From an uncultured Clostridia bacterium (lineage in GTDB: Bacteria > Bacillota > Clostridia > Oscillospirales > Ruminococcaceae), in assembly GCA_947175045.1 (NCBI GenBank), contig CAMWLH010000026.1, positions 1 through 12,726 on the forward strand: 12,726 bases of DNA, given 5' to 3'. Position numbers and translations under genes: made by a program. Positions 5,605 through 9,824 of this stretch are shown in pieces. Numbering within the stretch: position 1 is the first letter of the stretch; each line of letters opens with the position of its first letter. The notes below the pieces were generated by a model that saw only the letters and a list, made by a program, of their open reading frames with translations, ran no database searches and was not told the origin of the DNA.

Positions 5605-7644
5605 TCAGCCTCCGTACTGTACGCCCCGCGCGAGAATATCCACACTGTTGTCCGCCGCGCCCTCTATAGCGTCCACAGCCCGGTCAATATTCTCGTCGGA
5701 AGTTCCGTATATATTGGTCGTGGTCTCATTATTTACGGTTATATTGCTTGTGTTGCTGGTATTTGCCGCGTAATTGTACGCGCCGTCCGCGGTGCTGCCG
5801 TAGGTCGGAGATAACTTTTCCAGATCAAGACCGAGCGCGGCTAATTCATCGGCTGTATAGAAATTAAGATTGAGCGAGCCGTTTTCCTCCATCTGTCTGC
5901 GGCGGCTTTCCGCGTCCTCCGAATTTACGGTATCGGCAAAATGCTGCTGCCAGTAATACAGCTTCTCGTTGGTGTCAACTATTTCGTCAATAGCTTGATT
6001 TAAAGCGTCCTCCGCACTCATTCCTGCTCGCATAAGGGCGTTGCTTCTCATTCTCACGTCGCTGTCCATGTCCCCGTACTTATTTTGCAGATCAAGCTCG
6101 TTTATCTCATCGGCGTGAGTTATCTGATACAGATAGCTTCCAAATCCCTTCCAGAACTCCTTGACCTCGTTGTACCACTCTGAAAGATGCGTACCGAAAA
6201 GGCTGTCCACGAATTTCAGACAACTGTCGAAGGTGTTGCAGAAACCATCGGAGAACTCCTGCAAGCCCTTTTCGAAATCTCCGTTAAGGAAATCAATAAT
6301 TCCCTCCAGCATCGGTATAATGCCGTTATCAATTATATCCGTAAGTGTTTCGGCGATCAAAGGCAGCGCCAGCACCAGAAATTCCGCTATAAGCTCAAAA
6401 ACGGGCTGAATAATCTCCCATAATTTTGCCAGCGTAGTAAGCAGAGCCGACCCGAGCCTTTGCAAAGTGGGCAGCGTGCCTTTTATCGAATCCCACAGGT
6501 CAATAAAGATCTGCCTTACATCATCGGCGTTTATGCCCATTTTCTCAAACAGAGAACCCATTAGGCTGTCGTTTCCCTGCATGAAGTTGATAAAATCGTC
6601 TATTACAAGGAAAATGGCAAGCAGCAGGAGCTTCAAGCCCATTCCTTTCTTGTTGATAAGCCCGAAAGCAGAGGCTACCGCCTTAAGCACAGAAATAAAC
6701 TTAGCGCCTACGGCGCTGCCCGCAAATGTCAGTATCAGTCCCGAAACCAGTTTCAGAAGATTTTCCGTACCTCCGAGCTTGTCCGCCACCTTTTCAAGCG
6801 CCTCTTTCGCCTTATAAAGCCCCGCCATAATAACGTCGAAAACCTTTACCATACCGTTAGCAACGGTTTTGGTTATGCCAAAGGAGCTGTTAAAGTCGTC
6901 AACAAAGTTCCCCCACCTATCCTTGATGATCTGCAGCGAATCCGAGACAGACAGGTCGGTTTCGGCAAAGGCGGCGTTTATGGTATCTGCGTTATTGACA
7001 AAGGCGCGTTTGAGCTGTTCAAGCGAAATACCGCCGGAGGAAGCAAGCTTCTCCAGCTTGTCGGTCGTTGTGCCAACTGTTTCGGCAAGATACTTTGCCG
7101 CCTCGGGAGCGGAAGTCAGCATTGTTCCGACCGTCTGCGACGATACGGCGCCCTTTGCAAAGGAATCGGCTATGCTGTTCTGCAGCGAGGCGATCTGACT
7201 GTCCTCCATGCCGGAAGCCTTAAACAGCTTACCCGTAAGCGCGGTAAACTCAGTCGCTTCATCAACGCTTGAAAACGAAGCCGGTGCGGATTTCAGCAGC
7301 TTGGCGACAATATCCGATGTTTGACTGTAGGACAGCCGCGTTTCATTGGCGGTATCCAGTATTTTCTTCTGGATCTCCTCCTGATCGCCCAGTTCTTTTG
7401 TAGCCGCGCGTATCTTATCGTTGATATTACCGTATTCCTCGGCGGTCCGATTGAGGGATTTCAGCGATATCCCTATCCCCAGCACCGACAATGCCTGCAC
7501 AGCTGCCTGCTTTATCGTGCCAAAGGTTTTGGAAAATGCTTCGGAGATGTTCTCTGCGGTCTCGGAAGCCGTCTTTTCGGCTTGCGATTTGGAATTAGGA
7601 TCCGTCTCGTAAAATATGCTTGCGACAAGCTCCGCAACCGTCAT
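5605..7644 (-). CDS. Tail tape measure protein
   Basis: The 679-residue protein sets tail length and probably helps DNA entry. Residues 65-270 look like the tape-measure N-terminal domain: DKIRAATKELGDQEEIQKKI, then SYSQTSDIVAKLLKSAPASF, then GTMLTSAPEAAKYLAETVG, then ASSGGISLEQLKRAF. Long hydrophobic or amphipathic stretches follow at 296-330, 336-354 and 400-455, as in tape measures that insert into membranes. Residues 510-590 are charged helix. The C-terminus ends in an Asn/Thr-rich ITVNNETTTNIYG segment and a helix. I see no lysozyme, transglycosylase or peptidase motif. At about 1.5 angstrom per residue it predicts a tail of about 100 nm (inference). The ATG has AAGGAGATG upstream and follows the TGA of the chaperone frameshift extension by 4 bases. 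Confidence 0.92.
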   Translation of the reverse strand: MTVAELVASIFYETDPNSKSQAEKTASETAENISEAFSKTFGTIKQAAVQALSVLGIGISLKSLNRTAEEYGNINDKIRAATKELGDQEEIQKKILDTANETRLSYSQTSDIVAKLLKSAPASFSSVDEATEFTALTGKLFKASGMEDSQIASLQNSIADSFAKGAVSSQTVGTMLTSAPEAAKYLAETVGTTTDKLEKLASSGGISLEQLKRAFVNNADTINAAFAETDLSVSDSLQIIKDRWGNFVDDFNSSFGITKTVANGMVKVFDVIMAGLYKAKEALEKVADKLGGTENLLKLVSGLILTFAGSAVGAKFISVLKAVASAFGLINKKGMGLKLLLLAIFLVIDDFINFMQGNDSLMGSLFEKMGINADDVRQIFIDLWDSIKGTLPTLQRLGSALLTTLAKLWEIIQPVFELIAEFLVLALPLIAETLTDIIDNGIIPMLEGIIDFLNGDFEKGLQEFSDGFCNTFDSCLKFVDSLFGTHLSEWYNEVKEFWKGFGSYLYQITHADEINELDLQNKYGDMDSDVRMRSNALMRAGMSAEDALNQAIDEIVDTNEKLYYWQQHFADTVNSEDAESRRRQMEENGSLNLNFYTADELAALGLDLEKLSPTYGSTADGAYNYAANTSNTSNITVNNETTTNIYGTSDENIDRAVDAIEGAADNSVDILARGVQYGG

Positions 7645-7648
7645 TTGA

Positions 7649-7909
7649 TCATCTCCTTTTGCTCAATTCGTCATGCCTGCAGGCTTCTATATCCTTTTTC
7701 ATTCGATACAAGGCATATAATTTCAAAGCCTCGTCTAAGGTATAGAAGTTTTCCAGCTCAGATTTGCTTGCGAGATGCTCCTGTATAAGCAGATACATTC
7801 TCAGCTCCAGCTCGCTGAACTGCGTTATGTCGAGTTCTCCGTAATCACCGATTGTGCCATCTTGCTCAACCGACCTGCGGCACCGCCATATTGGTTGGTC
7901 AGCTTCCCG
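7649..7909 (-). CDS. -1 frameshift extension of the tail assembly chaperone
   Basis: In the -1 frame relative to the chaperone, the sequence is open from the slippery site to a TGA at 7651-7649, adding 86 residues. It begins READQPIWRCRRSVEQDG, continues through ELDITQFSELELRMYLLIQE and LDEALKLYALYRMKKDIEA, and ends in SKRR. The product would be 136 zero-frame residues plus 86, or 222 in total. It has the usual layout of a gpG/gpGT-type pair: short and long forms encoded just upstream of the tape measure. A competing reading is a separate 49-residue protein starting at an ATG (7798-7796) with GGAG 6 bases upstream. The frameshift better explains why the frame is open back to a perfect heptamer and why the gap is filled exactly. 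Confidence 0.78.
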   Translation of the reverse strand, partial: READQPIWRCRRSVEQDGTIGDYGELDITQFSELELRMYLLIQEHLASKSELENFYTLDEALKLYALYRMKKDIEACRHDELSKRR

Positions 7910-8316
7910 AAAAAACCGTTGTAATTCAGCTTTATAACCTCTAACGCAAGCAGGTACATATCCTGCACGTTCTCGCAGAACACCTCGTTCGCAAGGTCAG
8001 ATGTCAGCCGTTCTCCATCGGGATACTCCTCGTTGATTACCGTGATATTCTTTCCGTCGATAAGCAGCTTTTTGAGCAGTCTTTCAACAGCATCTCCGTC
8101 AAAAGAGCTGAAAGCGTCGCTTACCGCGCGTATCTCCTCAGCGCCGAAATCGGATATATCCTCATCGCTTCTCAAAAGCGGTACTATTCCAACGAGAAGA
8201 GGAGCTGCCGTTTTAAGCAGCTCCCCGCTCAGATTAGCCGCACGAAAAGCGGGAAACGGGAATATTGCAAATTCATTGCTTCCTATCTTTACGTTTTTTG
8301 CCTCAAACTGTTTCAT
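7825..8316 (-). CDS. Tail assembly chaperone (short form)
   Basis: The 163-residue zero-frame protein sits between tail tube and tape measure, the standard place for the tail chaperone that coats the tape measure during tube assembly. It begins MKQFEAKNVKIGSNEFAIFP with the conserved-looking FPAFRAANLSGELLK. A largely helical body follows (EEIRAVSDAFSSFDGDAVE, DLANEVFCENVQDMYLLALE). The segment NYNGFF at residues 131-136 encodes the slippery codons. After the slip point the short form continues GKLTNQYGGAAGRLSKMAQ and ends in NST. The ATG has GGAGGG 5 bases upstream. The assignment rests on position, pattern and the frameshift signal. Confidence 0.82.
   Translation of the reverse strand: MKQFEAKNVKIGSNEFAIFPFPAFRAANLSGELLKTAAPLLVGIVPLLRSDEDISDFGAEEIRAVSDAFSSFDGDAVERLLKKLLIDGKNITVINEEYPDGERLTSDLANEVFCENVQDMYLLALEVIKLNYNGFFGKLTNQYGGAAGRLSKMAQSVITENST
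7869..7903 (-). promoter_or_regulatory. Possible stem-loop stimulating the frameshift
   Basis: Five bases downstream of the slippery site, GCTGACC (7903-7897) can pair with GGTCGGT (7875-7869). This gives 7 base pairs including two G-U wobbles, around a 21-base loop that holds a small GGC/GCC hairpin. The spacing suits a -1 stimulator, but the stem is weak and was found by eye only. Confidence 0.35.
7909..7915 (-). promoter_or_regulatory. Programmed -1 ribosomal frameshift slippery site (TTTTTTC)
   Basis: On the minus strand the codons read GGT TTT TTC GGG, giving T TTT TTC in phase with the chaperone frame. Both tRNAs can re-pair after slipping back one base (TTT/TTC to TTT/TTT). The heptamer fits the X XXY YYZ rule exactly and leads into the 86-codon open -1 frame. 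Confidence 0.8.
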
Positions 8317-8328
8317 AGCTACCCTCCG

Positions 8329-8754
8329 TTATCCGTCCTTCAATGTAGCGTTTGCCGTCTGTATGGCCCACTGCCTGTTATTGGTGTCCTTACCGTATCC
8401 TCTGTCCGCCTGCTTGGTTACCCATGCATTTTCCGAGGAGAACACCAGACCTCCCTTGATATCCTTGATAAGAATGGGAAATATCCCATCCCCGCTTTCA
8501 ATGTCCCTGTCATACAATGACTGGAGATACTTGCTTGAATCTGAGGTTTGCAGCAGAGTAAGCTGAACCTGATAGGACTGATTGGGGTCGATTGCTCTCG
8601 CGACCTCGCCGTCACAGCCGAATTTTGACATTATTCCGTTGCCCACCTGCGAAATGGTTAGAAAGCTGTCGTCCGCAAGCCCCGATACCGCATGAGTGCC
8701 GATAGCGACCACTACCTCACGGCTGTTGTAGGTTTTTACTTTTACACTTGGCAT
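8329..8754 (-). CDS. Tail tube protein (DUF3277-like)
   Basis: The 141-residue protein fits DUF3277, the inner tube subunit of simple myovirus tails. It opens with KVKTYNSREVVVAIGTHAVS and GLADDSFLTISQVGNGIMSK. QSYQVQLTLLQTSDSSKYLQ, a typical tube core, follows, then FPILIKDIKGGLVFSSENAW and the C-terminal RQWAIQTANATL strand. Hexamers of this protein stack inside the sheath and carry DNA. It directly follows the sheath gene, the standard pairing. The ribosome binding site AAGGAGGT is one of the strongest in the window, consistent with a protein needed in many copies. Confidence 0.92.
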   Translation of the reverse strand: MPSVKVKTYNSREVVVAIGTHAVSGLADDSFLTISQVGNGIMSKFGCDGEVARAIDPNQSYQVQLTLLQTSDSSKYLQSLYDRDIESGDGIFPILIKDIKGGLVFSSENAWVTKQADRGYGKDTNNRQWAIQTANATLKDG

Positions 8755-8765
8755 TATTTACCTCC

Positions 8766-9824
8766 TTATGTTGTCAGAACGCCGACGATTTTTACGGCGT
8801 GGATTGCTCCAGCAAGCCTCGCTGTAAATTTACAGTTGTTGAGAGTTCTTGCGGCTTTTTCCGAATCGGTCACGTTTACGGCGTTGGGAACGGAAACCGT
8901 AAATCCGGCGATCTCGTTTCCGTCCGAATCATACTCGGTAGGTGCTATGCCGCCGTTCGCCTGCCCCTCTTTAAGTGAAGCAATCATCTGATTCTCTATA
9001 AGAGCTATCCCCGAGTTGGTAAAGGGTATCTTGGGATTCATGACAAACAGATTGTAGATTTTCTTCTGCATATCGTTATGCAGCCAATCACGAAAGCGTA
9101 TGGTGTCTATCCATTCGCCGCCGCACACCTTGCCGGTAAGCGTTATGTTCTTGCCCGCGCAGGCTATGTAATAATTCAGATTTGCCTTGTCAAGCTCCGC
9201 TATCTGACTGCTTGTAAGAACTGGCGGAGATATCTGCGACAGCGTCTTGTAAGCCCATGTTTCCGAGCCGCTGGTATATCCAAGACCAACCGCCATACAA
9301 GCGACATGGGTATAGGCATTGTAGGTCTTGCTGTCCTTTTCGGCGTAAAATCCGAAGGTCCTCATGCTTCCTGCGGAAACAGGATTGGTAAGGCTATCTG
9401 TCGTAAAGCCGAGTATCTTCTCCTGAGTTTCTATCCATGCCGTGGCAAGACGGGTATCCTCCGCGCTTGCATCGTCAAGCAGCGCAACACCGTACCAAAC
9501 GTCGTTTTCTATCGCGCGTGACAGCGTATCGGTTATATCCTCGGGTATTTCCTCGGAAATTTTCCGCACAGCTATGTATATCTTTTCCGCTCCGTTCGCG
9601 AAAGCGACCATAGCCGCCTTTGCTATCGGATCATCCGTTAAGCTCCACCCTGCTTCCGTAACCTCCGTGATATCCGAATATTCCCCAACGTCGGCGGGAG
9701 CTTTCGCGGGGCTTTGCAGCGGCGCGGGTCCTATAAGCAGCATATAGTTAAAGCTGGTGCTGTCCAAGACAGCCGACTGAATACTTATGCTGACGTTTAC
9801 GATTTTATCAAGCAAATTGCTCAT
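8766..9824 (-). CDS. Contractile tail sheath protein (DUF3383)
   Basis: The 352-residue protein matches DUF3383, a short form of contractile tail sheath. The N-terminus has VNVSISIQSAVLDSTSFNYM followed by LLIGPAP. The middle has an AAMVAFANGAEKIYIAVRKI segment, GSETWAYKTLSQISPPVLTS, LDKANLNYYIACAGKN and a GEWIDTIRFRDWLHNDMQKK stretch. The C-terminus has PFTNSGIALIENQMIASLKE and ends in AGAIHAVKIVGVLTT, the likely handshake strand that links neighbouring subunits. Its presence defines the tail as contractile. The ATG overlaps the terminator stop in ATGA, with GAGGAGG upstream, suggesting coupled but strong translation. It is shorter than T4-type sheaths, as is normal for this family. Confidence 0.93.
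   Translation of the reverse strand: MSNLLDKIVNVSISIQSAVLDSTSFNYMLLIGPAPLQSPAKAPADVGEYSDITEVTEAGWSLTDDPIAKAAMVAFANGAEKIYIAVRKISEEIPEDITDTLSRAIENDVWYGVALLDDASAEDTRLATAWIETQEKILGFTTDSLTNPVSAGSMRTFGFYAEKDSKTYNAYTHVACMAVGLGYTSGSETWAYKTLSQISPPVLTSSQIAELDKANLNYYIACAGKNITLTGKVCGGEWIDTIRFRDWLHNDMQKKIYNLFVMNPKIPFTNSGIALIENQMIASLKEGQANGGIAPTEYDSDGNEIAGFTVSVPNAVNVTDSEKAARTLNNCKFTARLAGAIHAVKIVGVLTT

Follow-up and report, generated by a model that had tools for sequence, protein, structure and literature searches.

The tail module in the window

The stretch of DNA analysed here (the window, 12,726 nucleotides) comes from an uncultured Clostridia bacterium, and its minus strand is a contractile-tail prophage module with the following genes, together with one for a Dit-like protein (PF21821).

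8766..9824, minus strand: tail sheath, DUF3383 (PF11863, E 1.2e-26; phrog_205 tail sheath, E 1.2e-74)
8329..8754, minus strand: tail tube-like structural protein, KPP10_Orf10 family (PF11681, E 1.3e-7; phrog_280 virion structural protein)
7825..8316, minus strand: tail assembly chaperone, short form, 163 aa, 0 frame (PF21822 Phage_TAC_15; phrog_1613)
5605..7644, minus strand: tape measure protein, 679 aa (PF20155 TMP_3, E 2.6e-33)

PHROGs concur with Pfam on the sheath, the chaperone and the tape measure, and call the tube-like product a "virion structural protein"; its role in the tube is suggested by its position. The chaperone scores 77.5 bits against PF21822 (Phage_TAC_15), for which the curated cut-off is 22, and thus belongs to that family; it also matches the phrog_1613 tail assembly chaperones (E 2.2e-22). 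Its gene sits between those for the tube-like and tape measure proteins, as a G/GT-type pair demands. For the chaperone, a sequence search against solved structures (E up to 1) was empty, a Foldseek search of its model against the PDB gave nothing at E ≤ 0.001, an NCBIfam search for this locus gave no match, and a pattern scan of 7500-8400 found no promoter-like site. Elsewhere on the minus strand, 179-937 encodes a predicted protein, possibly a tail fibre, in which Gly-X-Y repeats of the collagen type lie close to the C-terminus.

The predicted slip site and its reading frames

The features bearing on the decoding of the chaperone gene are as follows.

7909..7915, minus strand: candidate slippery heptamer T TTT TTC (0 frame GGT TTT TTC, 7917-7909), recognised by phase, cross-locus conservation and codon freezing
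7825..7827, minus strand: TAA closing the 0 frame (short form)
7796..7798, minus strand: internal ATG, start of phrog_31474, with GGAG 6 bases upstream
7652..7909, minus strand: C-terminal extension in the -1 frame, 86 aa, of the predicted 222-aa long form
7649..7651, minus strand: TGA closing the -1 frame

The first-pass annotation of this DNA had proposed a programmed -1 frameshift in the chaperone gene, and its description of the locus is borne out by the sequence. The heptamer lies at 7915-7909 in the phase of the chaperone, with the X XXY YYZ pattern correct in the 163-codon ORF 8316-7825, and 86 codons, from 7909 to 7652, follow in the open -1 frame before the TGA at 7651-7649. Four bases (7648-7645) separate this TGA from the tape measure ATG at 7644, and the apparent gap of about 180 bases between the called genes spans 7824-7645, exactly 180. 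The proposed product lengths match the predicted frames, the long form of 222 residues consisting of 136 common to both forms and the 86-residue extension, next to a short form of 163. The motif WRCRRSVEQDG and the ATG at 7798 (extension residue 38) are likewise present as claimed.

A heptamer in one sequence is weak evidence, since the 18 ORFs of the window contain seven X XXY YYZ sites in phase (Y = A or T). One of these, AAAAAAC at 8299, lies in the chaperone gene itself; of the two, only that at 7915 can reach the extension, because a shift at 8299 meets a -1 stop at 7999 at the latest. It is comparison with other loci, not the motif alone, that raises the predicted site above chance.

Relatives of the locus

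Relatives were sought by two differently aimed searches, one by the chaperone and one by the extension. In 50,697 phage records, tblastn with the chaperone (E up to 1e-3) matched only FP_Brigit, in two records, and the extension alone (E up to 1) led to the same place in that phage, with 57% identity over residues 1-84; a viral scan with the single chaperone sequence as query found nothing. A profile of 22 chaperones matched 34 viral-contig loci and 11 loci in genomes whose titles name Clostridia, Oscillospiraceae, Lachnospiraceae, Parablautia, Bacillota or uncultured bacterium. With a profile of 15 extensions, 132 viral-contig loci were matched, the best 80 of which were used. The chaperone is present in three of 100 related genomes and PF21822 in two of 299 genomes of the phylum, the window's own genome being included in both counts.

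Pooled with the window and L002-L004, and with truncated or repeated rows removed, the 127 entries (some contigs appearing twice) gave 78 distinct extensions, the window included; since the rows are related, counts over them are not independent, although the mean identity among extensions is only 55%. L001 and L050, which are the window itself, were not counted, L014 and L127 were set aside as truncated copies, and L072 was left out as lying on the same contig as L031; L051, a distant PF21822 member known by its ORF list, is unscored.

Conservation of the heptamer and freezing of its codons

All 78 distinct loci carry an in-phase slippery heptamer, as expected of a G/GT-type pair, in one of three types: T TTT TTC in 75, T TTT TTT in one and A AAT TTT in two. 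When only loci below 80% identity are retained, 61 remain, with counts of 58, one and two, respectively. The first-pass annotation had held that homologues lacking the heptamer would refute it, and none of the 78 is without a slippery heptamer. In 41 loci of the chaperone-search set, and in L003, the site was placed by the residues Gly-Phe-Phe, blind to the heptamer; these residues are encoded by GGT TTT TTC in 41/41, as they are in L003, which was read on the other strand. Upstream codon usage in 40 such genes predicts this spelling for 3.4% of Gly-Phe-Phe triplets. The test is softer in six loci without Gly-Phe-Phe (L009, L010, L027, L048, L031 and L037), as well as in ten distant phages, where the site was picked from the list of in-phase heptamers. 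Four of them (L009, L010, L027, L048) have Ser or Asp before an intact T TTT TTC, and where Gly is replaced (counted at three loci) the preceding codon still ends in T (AGT, GAT). In L031 and L037 T TTT TTC is gone; an A AAT TTT, likewise in phase, stands four codons upstream of its place and leads to the same -1 frame, so that the site is relocated and the output kept; these two loci amount to a natural test, in which slippage would have been retained and the amino acids not. The extension-search set agrees, T TTT TTC standing directly before the match in 78 of 80 loci, the other two being L086 (T TTT TTT) and L072 (the contig of L031, with the relocated site).

Codon choice at the site is frozen. 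Across 39 aligned chaperones, the slip-site Gly is GGT in 34/34, the first Phe TTT in 37/37 and the second Phe TTC in 37/37, whereas other conserved Phe columns of the same alignment show TTT:TTC ratios of 23:12, 17:19 and 6:33, and another conserved Gly column, for example, holds 17 GGC, 7 GGA, 7 GGT and 6 GGG. Upstream in the same genes, TTT and TTC occur 120 and 153 times, and GGT accounts for 55 of 400 Gly codons.

These comparisons bear on two explanations that would dispense with ribosomal slippage. The window is one 12.7-kb contig of a 443-contig draft genome, as would suit a sequencing error or a decayed prophage gene that broke one ORF in two; yet 75 further distinct loci, among viral contigs, genomes and an annotated phage, break frame at this very codon, and two more do so at a moved site, which refutes this account and leaves it a negligible probability. 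RNA polymerase slippage on the T6 run could also generate the long form through an altered transcript, and the run is indeed present, with seven T in L086. Six T, however, is short for polymerase slippage, and the X XXY YYZ codon phase, which transcript slippage would not need, is kept in 78/78. In L031 and L037 the A AAT TTT site offers only four T, and the longest homopolymer between -60 and +80 is 5 and 4 nucleotides, respectively; we thus consider polymerase slippage extremely unlikely as the source of the long form at this locus. L086, in which the heptamer lies just before the extension match at 355, is the sole relative with T TTT TTT, and polymerase slippage at its seven-T run is also conceivable.

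The extension as a coding sequence

The -1 frame is 84-100 codons long in 77 of the 78 loci, and in L037 it runs for 28 codons to the end of the contig. Stops in this frame, which the first-pass annotation had named as contrary evidence, do not occur ahead of the extension end (77 full, L037 contig-limited). When 40 sequences are recoded at random with synonymous codons, the part overlapping the 0 frame stays open in 47% of cases on average. The -1 reading bears a coding signature: third positions of the -1 frame vary most in 5/5 blocks tested, and near-invariant residues begin right after the heptamer, with E2 and P6 at 99%, W8 at 100% and G24 within 99-100%. Identity over the first eight codons is 69% in the -1 reading, against 40% in the 0 reading (seven codons). 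Among 37 sequences, mean pairwise identity of the extension is 51% ahead of the internal ATG and 60% after it, whereas that of the 0-frame tail is 28%; conservation confined to the part after the ATG at 7798, the third objection foreseen, is thus not what is observed. When the next long ORF is assigned by a crude rule, its start lies within 5 bases of the end of the -1 frame in 26 of 41 loci and 9-112 bases beyond that end in 11; in four no start was found. As in a G/GT-type pair, the overlapping -1 frame is open, selected for coding and ends near the tape measure start.

The internal ATG invites another explanation, in which the downstream frame would be no more than a small gene of its own, with initiation at 7798 from a dedicated ribosome-binding site or by re-initiation. 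The GGAG stands at a good distance, 6 bases before the ATG, the 0-frame stop lies 26 bases upstream of it (as the re-initiation variant would have it), and the codon is ATG in 68 of 77 relatives; phrog_31474, a family of 50 positions and unknown function, begins there, and the FP_Brigit annotation has its own CDS of that length. Against this, conservation of the -1 frame sets in right after the heptamer (E2, P6, W8), ahead of any start codon, and the slip-site codons are frozen. The apparent GGAG falls within the conserved coding motif ELELR, and in eight of the 77 relatives the position holds CTG, TTA, CTC, CTA, CTT or TGC, with no ATG, GTG or TTG. A separate gene as the only product is consequently very unlikely.

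The same features (GGAG, ATG in 68/77, phrog_31474 and the FP_Brigit CDS) would equally suit a frameshifted long form accompanied by a free 49-residue C-terminal copy from the internal ATG, since the two readings are compatible. Given that the start codon is missing in 8/77, we regard this combination, with its hypothetical free product, as improbable; its share of probability is included in that of frameshifting and overlaps with it. A free C-terminal fragment would in any case not be the whole story, because eight of 77 relatives lack a start and conservation begins about 37 residues earlier.

The family phrog_31474 covers extension residues 38-86 (E 3.1e-20) and is matched by all 15 extensions scanned. 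An independent family would keep its own start across its members, which the eight relatives do not, and our reading is that phrog_31474 probably represents a fragment of the chaperone long form, in which case it gains a function.

AlphaFold2 models the extension with a mean pLDDT of 88. Two short strands (residues 8-10 and 24-26) lie ahead of the internal ATG in this model, and three helices around and beyond it; along the 0-frame tail of the short form predicted confidence drops, in blocks of 70, 52, 48 and 32. Foldseek found no match for the extension model at E ≤ 0.001 in the PDB or in BFVD, where the best E was 9.9e-3 and several short phage proteins, including a 48-residue protein of Edwardsiella phage GF-2, had probabilities of 0.93-1.00. 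Weak matches to the extension come from phrog_4774 and phrog_3976, both absent from 14/14 control genomes.

In-frame fusions of chaperone and extension (22 hits, 14 read) were dropped as evidence. One of them, P0121 (246 aa, on a 90.6-kb contig), has chaperone and extension in one frame, cleanly joined at Gly-Phe-Phe, but in others the junction shifts from protein to protein or the N-terminus is an unrelated one, a pattern expected of assembly errors. P0121 is either a natural fusion or a T-run indel. Among the metagenomic P0128-P0133 and P0141, several join unrelated N-termini (regulator-like, methylase-like, chaperones) near the slip site to one same extension, and look like assembly chimeras.

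Proposed mechanism

Taken together, the comparison of 78 loci supports the first-pass proposal, and programmed -1 ribosomal frameshifting very probably lets the chaperone gene yield two proteins. The 163-residue short form would come from the majority of ribosomes, which stay in frame through GGT TTT TTC and terminate at 7827-7825. A minority would slip back one base, both tRNA-Phe shifting from T TTT TTC to re-pair on TTT TTT, and would go on in the -1 frame to the stop at 7651-7649, giving the 222-residue long form. The most likely event is a tandem -1 slip of two tRNA-Phe, of the standard type; we infer slippage itself, as well as how often it happens, the ratio of short to long form and the binding partners discussed below.

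Many such frameshift sites, though not all, have a downstream stimulatory RNA structure. A search for a conserved one found none, RNAalifold giving -0.46 kcal/mol on 37 sequences (energies in the column-shuffle control were zero, which yields no z-score). Single-sequence z-scores showed nothing specific either: at -1.10, the value for downstream folding lies inside the range of four control windows (-1.25 to 0.02).

Comparison with known systems

In lambda, as PMC5009743 describes, gpG and gpGT arise by a -1 frameshift near the 3′ end of the tail chaperone gene in a ratio of 30:1, the short form binds the tape measure, the extension binds the tube protein, and neither is found in the virion; the same review reports that this type of frameshift is widespread in long-tailed phages and keeps its place despite low sequence similarity. 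The present locus resembles lambda in the position of the shift near the 3′ end of the gene and in an N-terminal part common to both forms. It differs in having a DUF3383-sheath module, a Phage_TAC_15 chaperone and T TTT TTC; the likeness drawn here is one of layout. By this analogy, the short form, in many copies, would cover the tape measure protein, and the extra domain of the less abundant long form would recruit tail tube subunits, both forms departing before the tail is completed. The tape measure protein of the window is then the expected client of the chaperone, and the tube-like protein (8329..8754) the expected partner of the extension.

The nearest published case (PMC12846349) is TAC-N/TAC-NC of the Vandenendeviridae (Pseudomonas phage Adele), where a -1 frameshift is predicted at an invariant GTTTTT in 56 alleles from 159 genomes, an arrangement reported there also in 231 Andersonviridae. 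Both cases are predictions that start from a -1 frame free of stops and a motif that does not vary, with a downstream ORF routinely annotated as hypothetical; the motif is GTTTTT there and T TTT TTC here, and the likeness drawn is again one of layout. Further sources describe a prediction tool (PMC10274946) and measured frameshifting of 6% and 7% in two genes of an HK97-like chaperone cluster (PMC3711429).

FP_Brigit (gp45/gp46, NC_047909.1) has the same in-phase T TTT TTC, with a chaperone 49% and an extension 57% identical to those of the window. Its annotation presents two separate proteins and no frameshift, the chaperone CDS being followed by a 50-aa hypothetical CDS (gp46) that fits a start at the internal ATG, which bears out the earlier expectation that automatic gene calling would miss the product. 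The main text of the FP_Brigit paper (PMC5883640) contains neither "frameshift" nor "chaperone", and "frameshift" is absent from the main texts on FP01 (PMC13432834), MiCath (PMC10710427) and SEN34 (PMC5261728); among the open-access papers listed for PF21822/Phage_TAC_15 the titles are all unrelated, and no open-access paper was found that links DUF3383 with a frameshift in tail assembly. The locus in the window is a well-supported new instance of a well-known tailed-phage trick, and as such not surprising. Its practical value lies in annotation: gene callers tend to split such genes into a gene and a mystery fragment, and in this group a chaperone followed by a small "hypothetical" ORF, or by a gap before the tape measure, would be one frameshifted gene.

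Distant phages and a possible ancestral cassette

With the sheath as query and an E limit of 0.01, 1,372 phage records were matched. Ten sheath-matched phages and GF-2, taken from the fold search, made eleven, ten of which were analysed, L139 (LIET2), which has no annotated chaperone, being left out; in GF-2, vB_Ecl_MII_001 and Pd_22F no gene at that place is named chaperone, and the ORF was taken by position. The same layout recurs in six of the ten (GF-2, phiEt88, vB_Ecl_MII_001, POR1, MiCath and SEN34), with an in-phase T TTT TTN near the chaperone end and a -1 frame ending within 11 bases of the tape measure start.

The other four (AM24, vB_PseuGesM_254, VH-8 and Pd_22F) have no in-phase X XXY YYZ, although their -1 frame stays open as far as the tape measure start or close to it; GTTTTT(T) runs are present in AM24 and vB_PseuGesM_254. 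Three of these chaperone genes, in phages of Acinetobacter, Pseudomonas and Vibrio (L137 6361-7011, L140 5907-6551 and L141 6316-6996), combine a long open -1 frame up to the tape measure gene with the lack of an in-phase X XXY YYZ, so their shift signal must differ.

Scored with a profile of the 78 extensions, vB_Ecl_MII_001 (16.5 bits), phiEt88 (14.2) and GF-2 (11.8) all exceed 1,200 shuffled sequences (best 6.4), whereas POR1 (3.9), MiCath (2.8) and SEN34 (-1.3) do not; by these scores, descent from one domain is supported for the first three only. The chances are about even that the slip site and C-terminal domain constitute one ancestral decoding cassette of contractile-tailed phages, with hosts from Clostridia to Proteobacteria. 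Such a cassette would have kept a helical core and a start resembling P-[ILV]-W, with its heptamer swapped (T TTT TTC, T TTT TTT, T TTT TTA, T TTT TTG, A AAT TTT) or moved, and several families of 40-90 residues and "unknown function" between chaperone and tape measure genes would be pieces of frameshift products; profile support for this scenario comes from three of the six distant phages.
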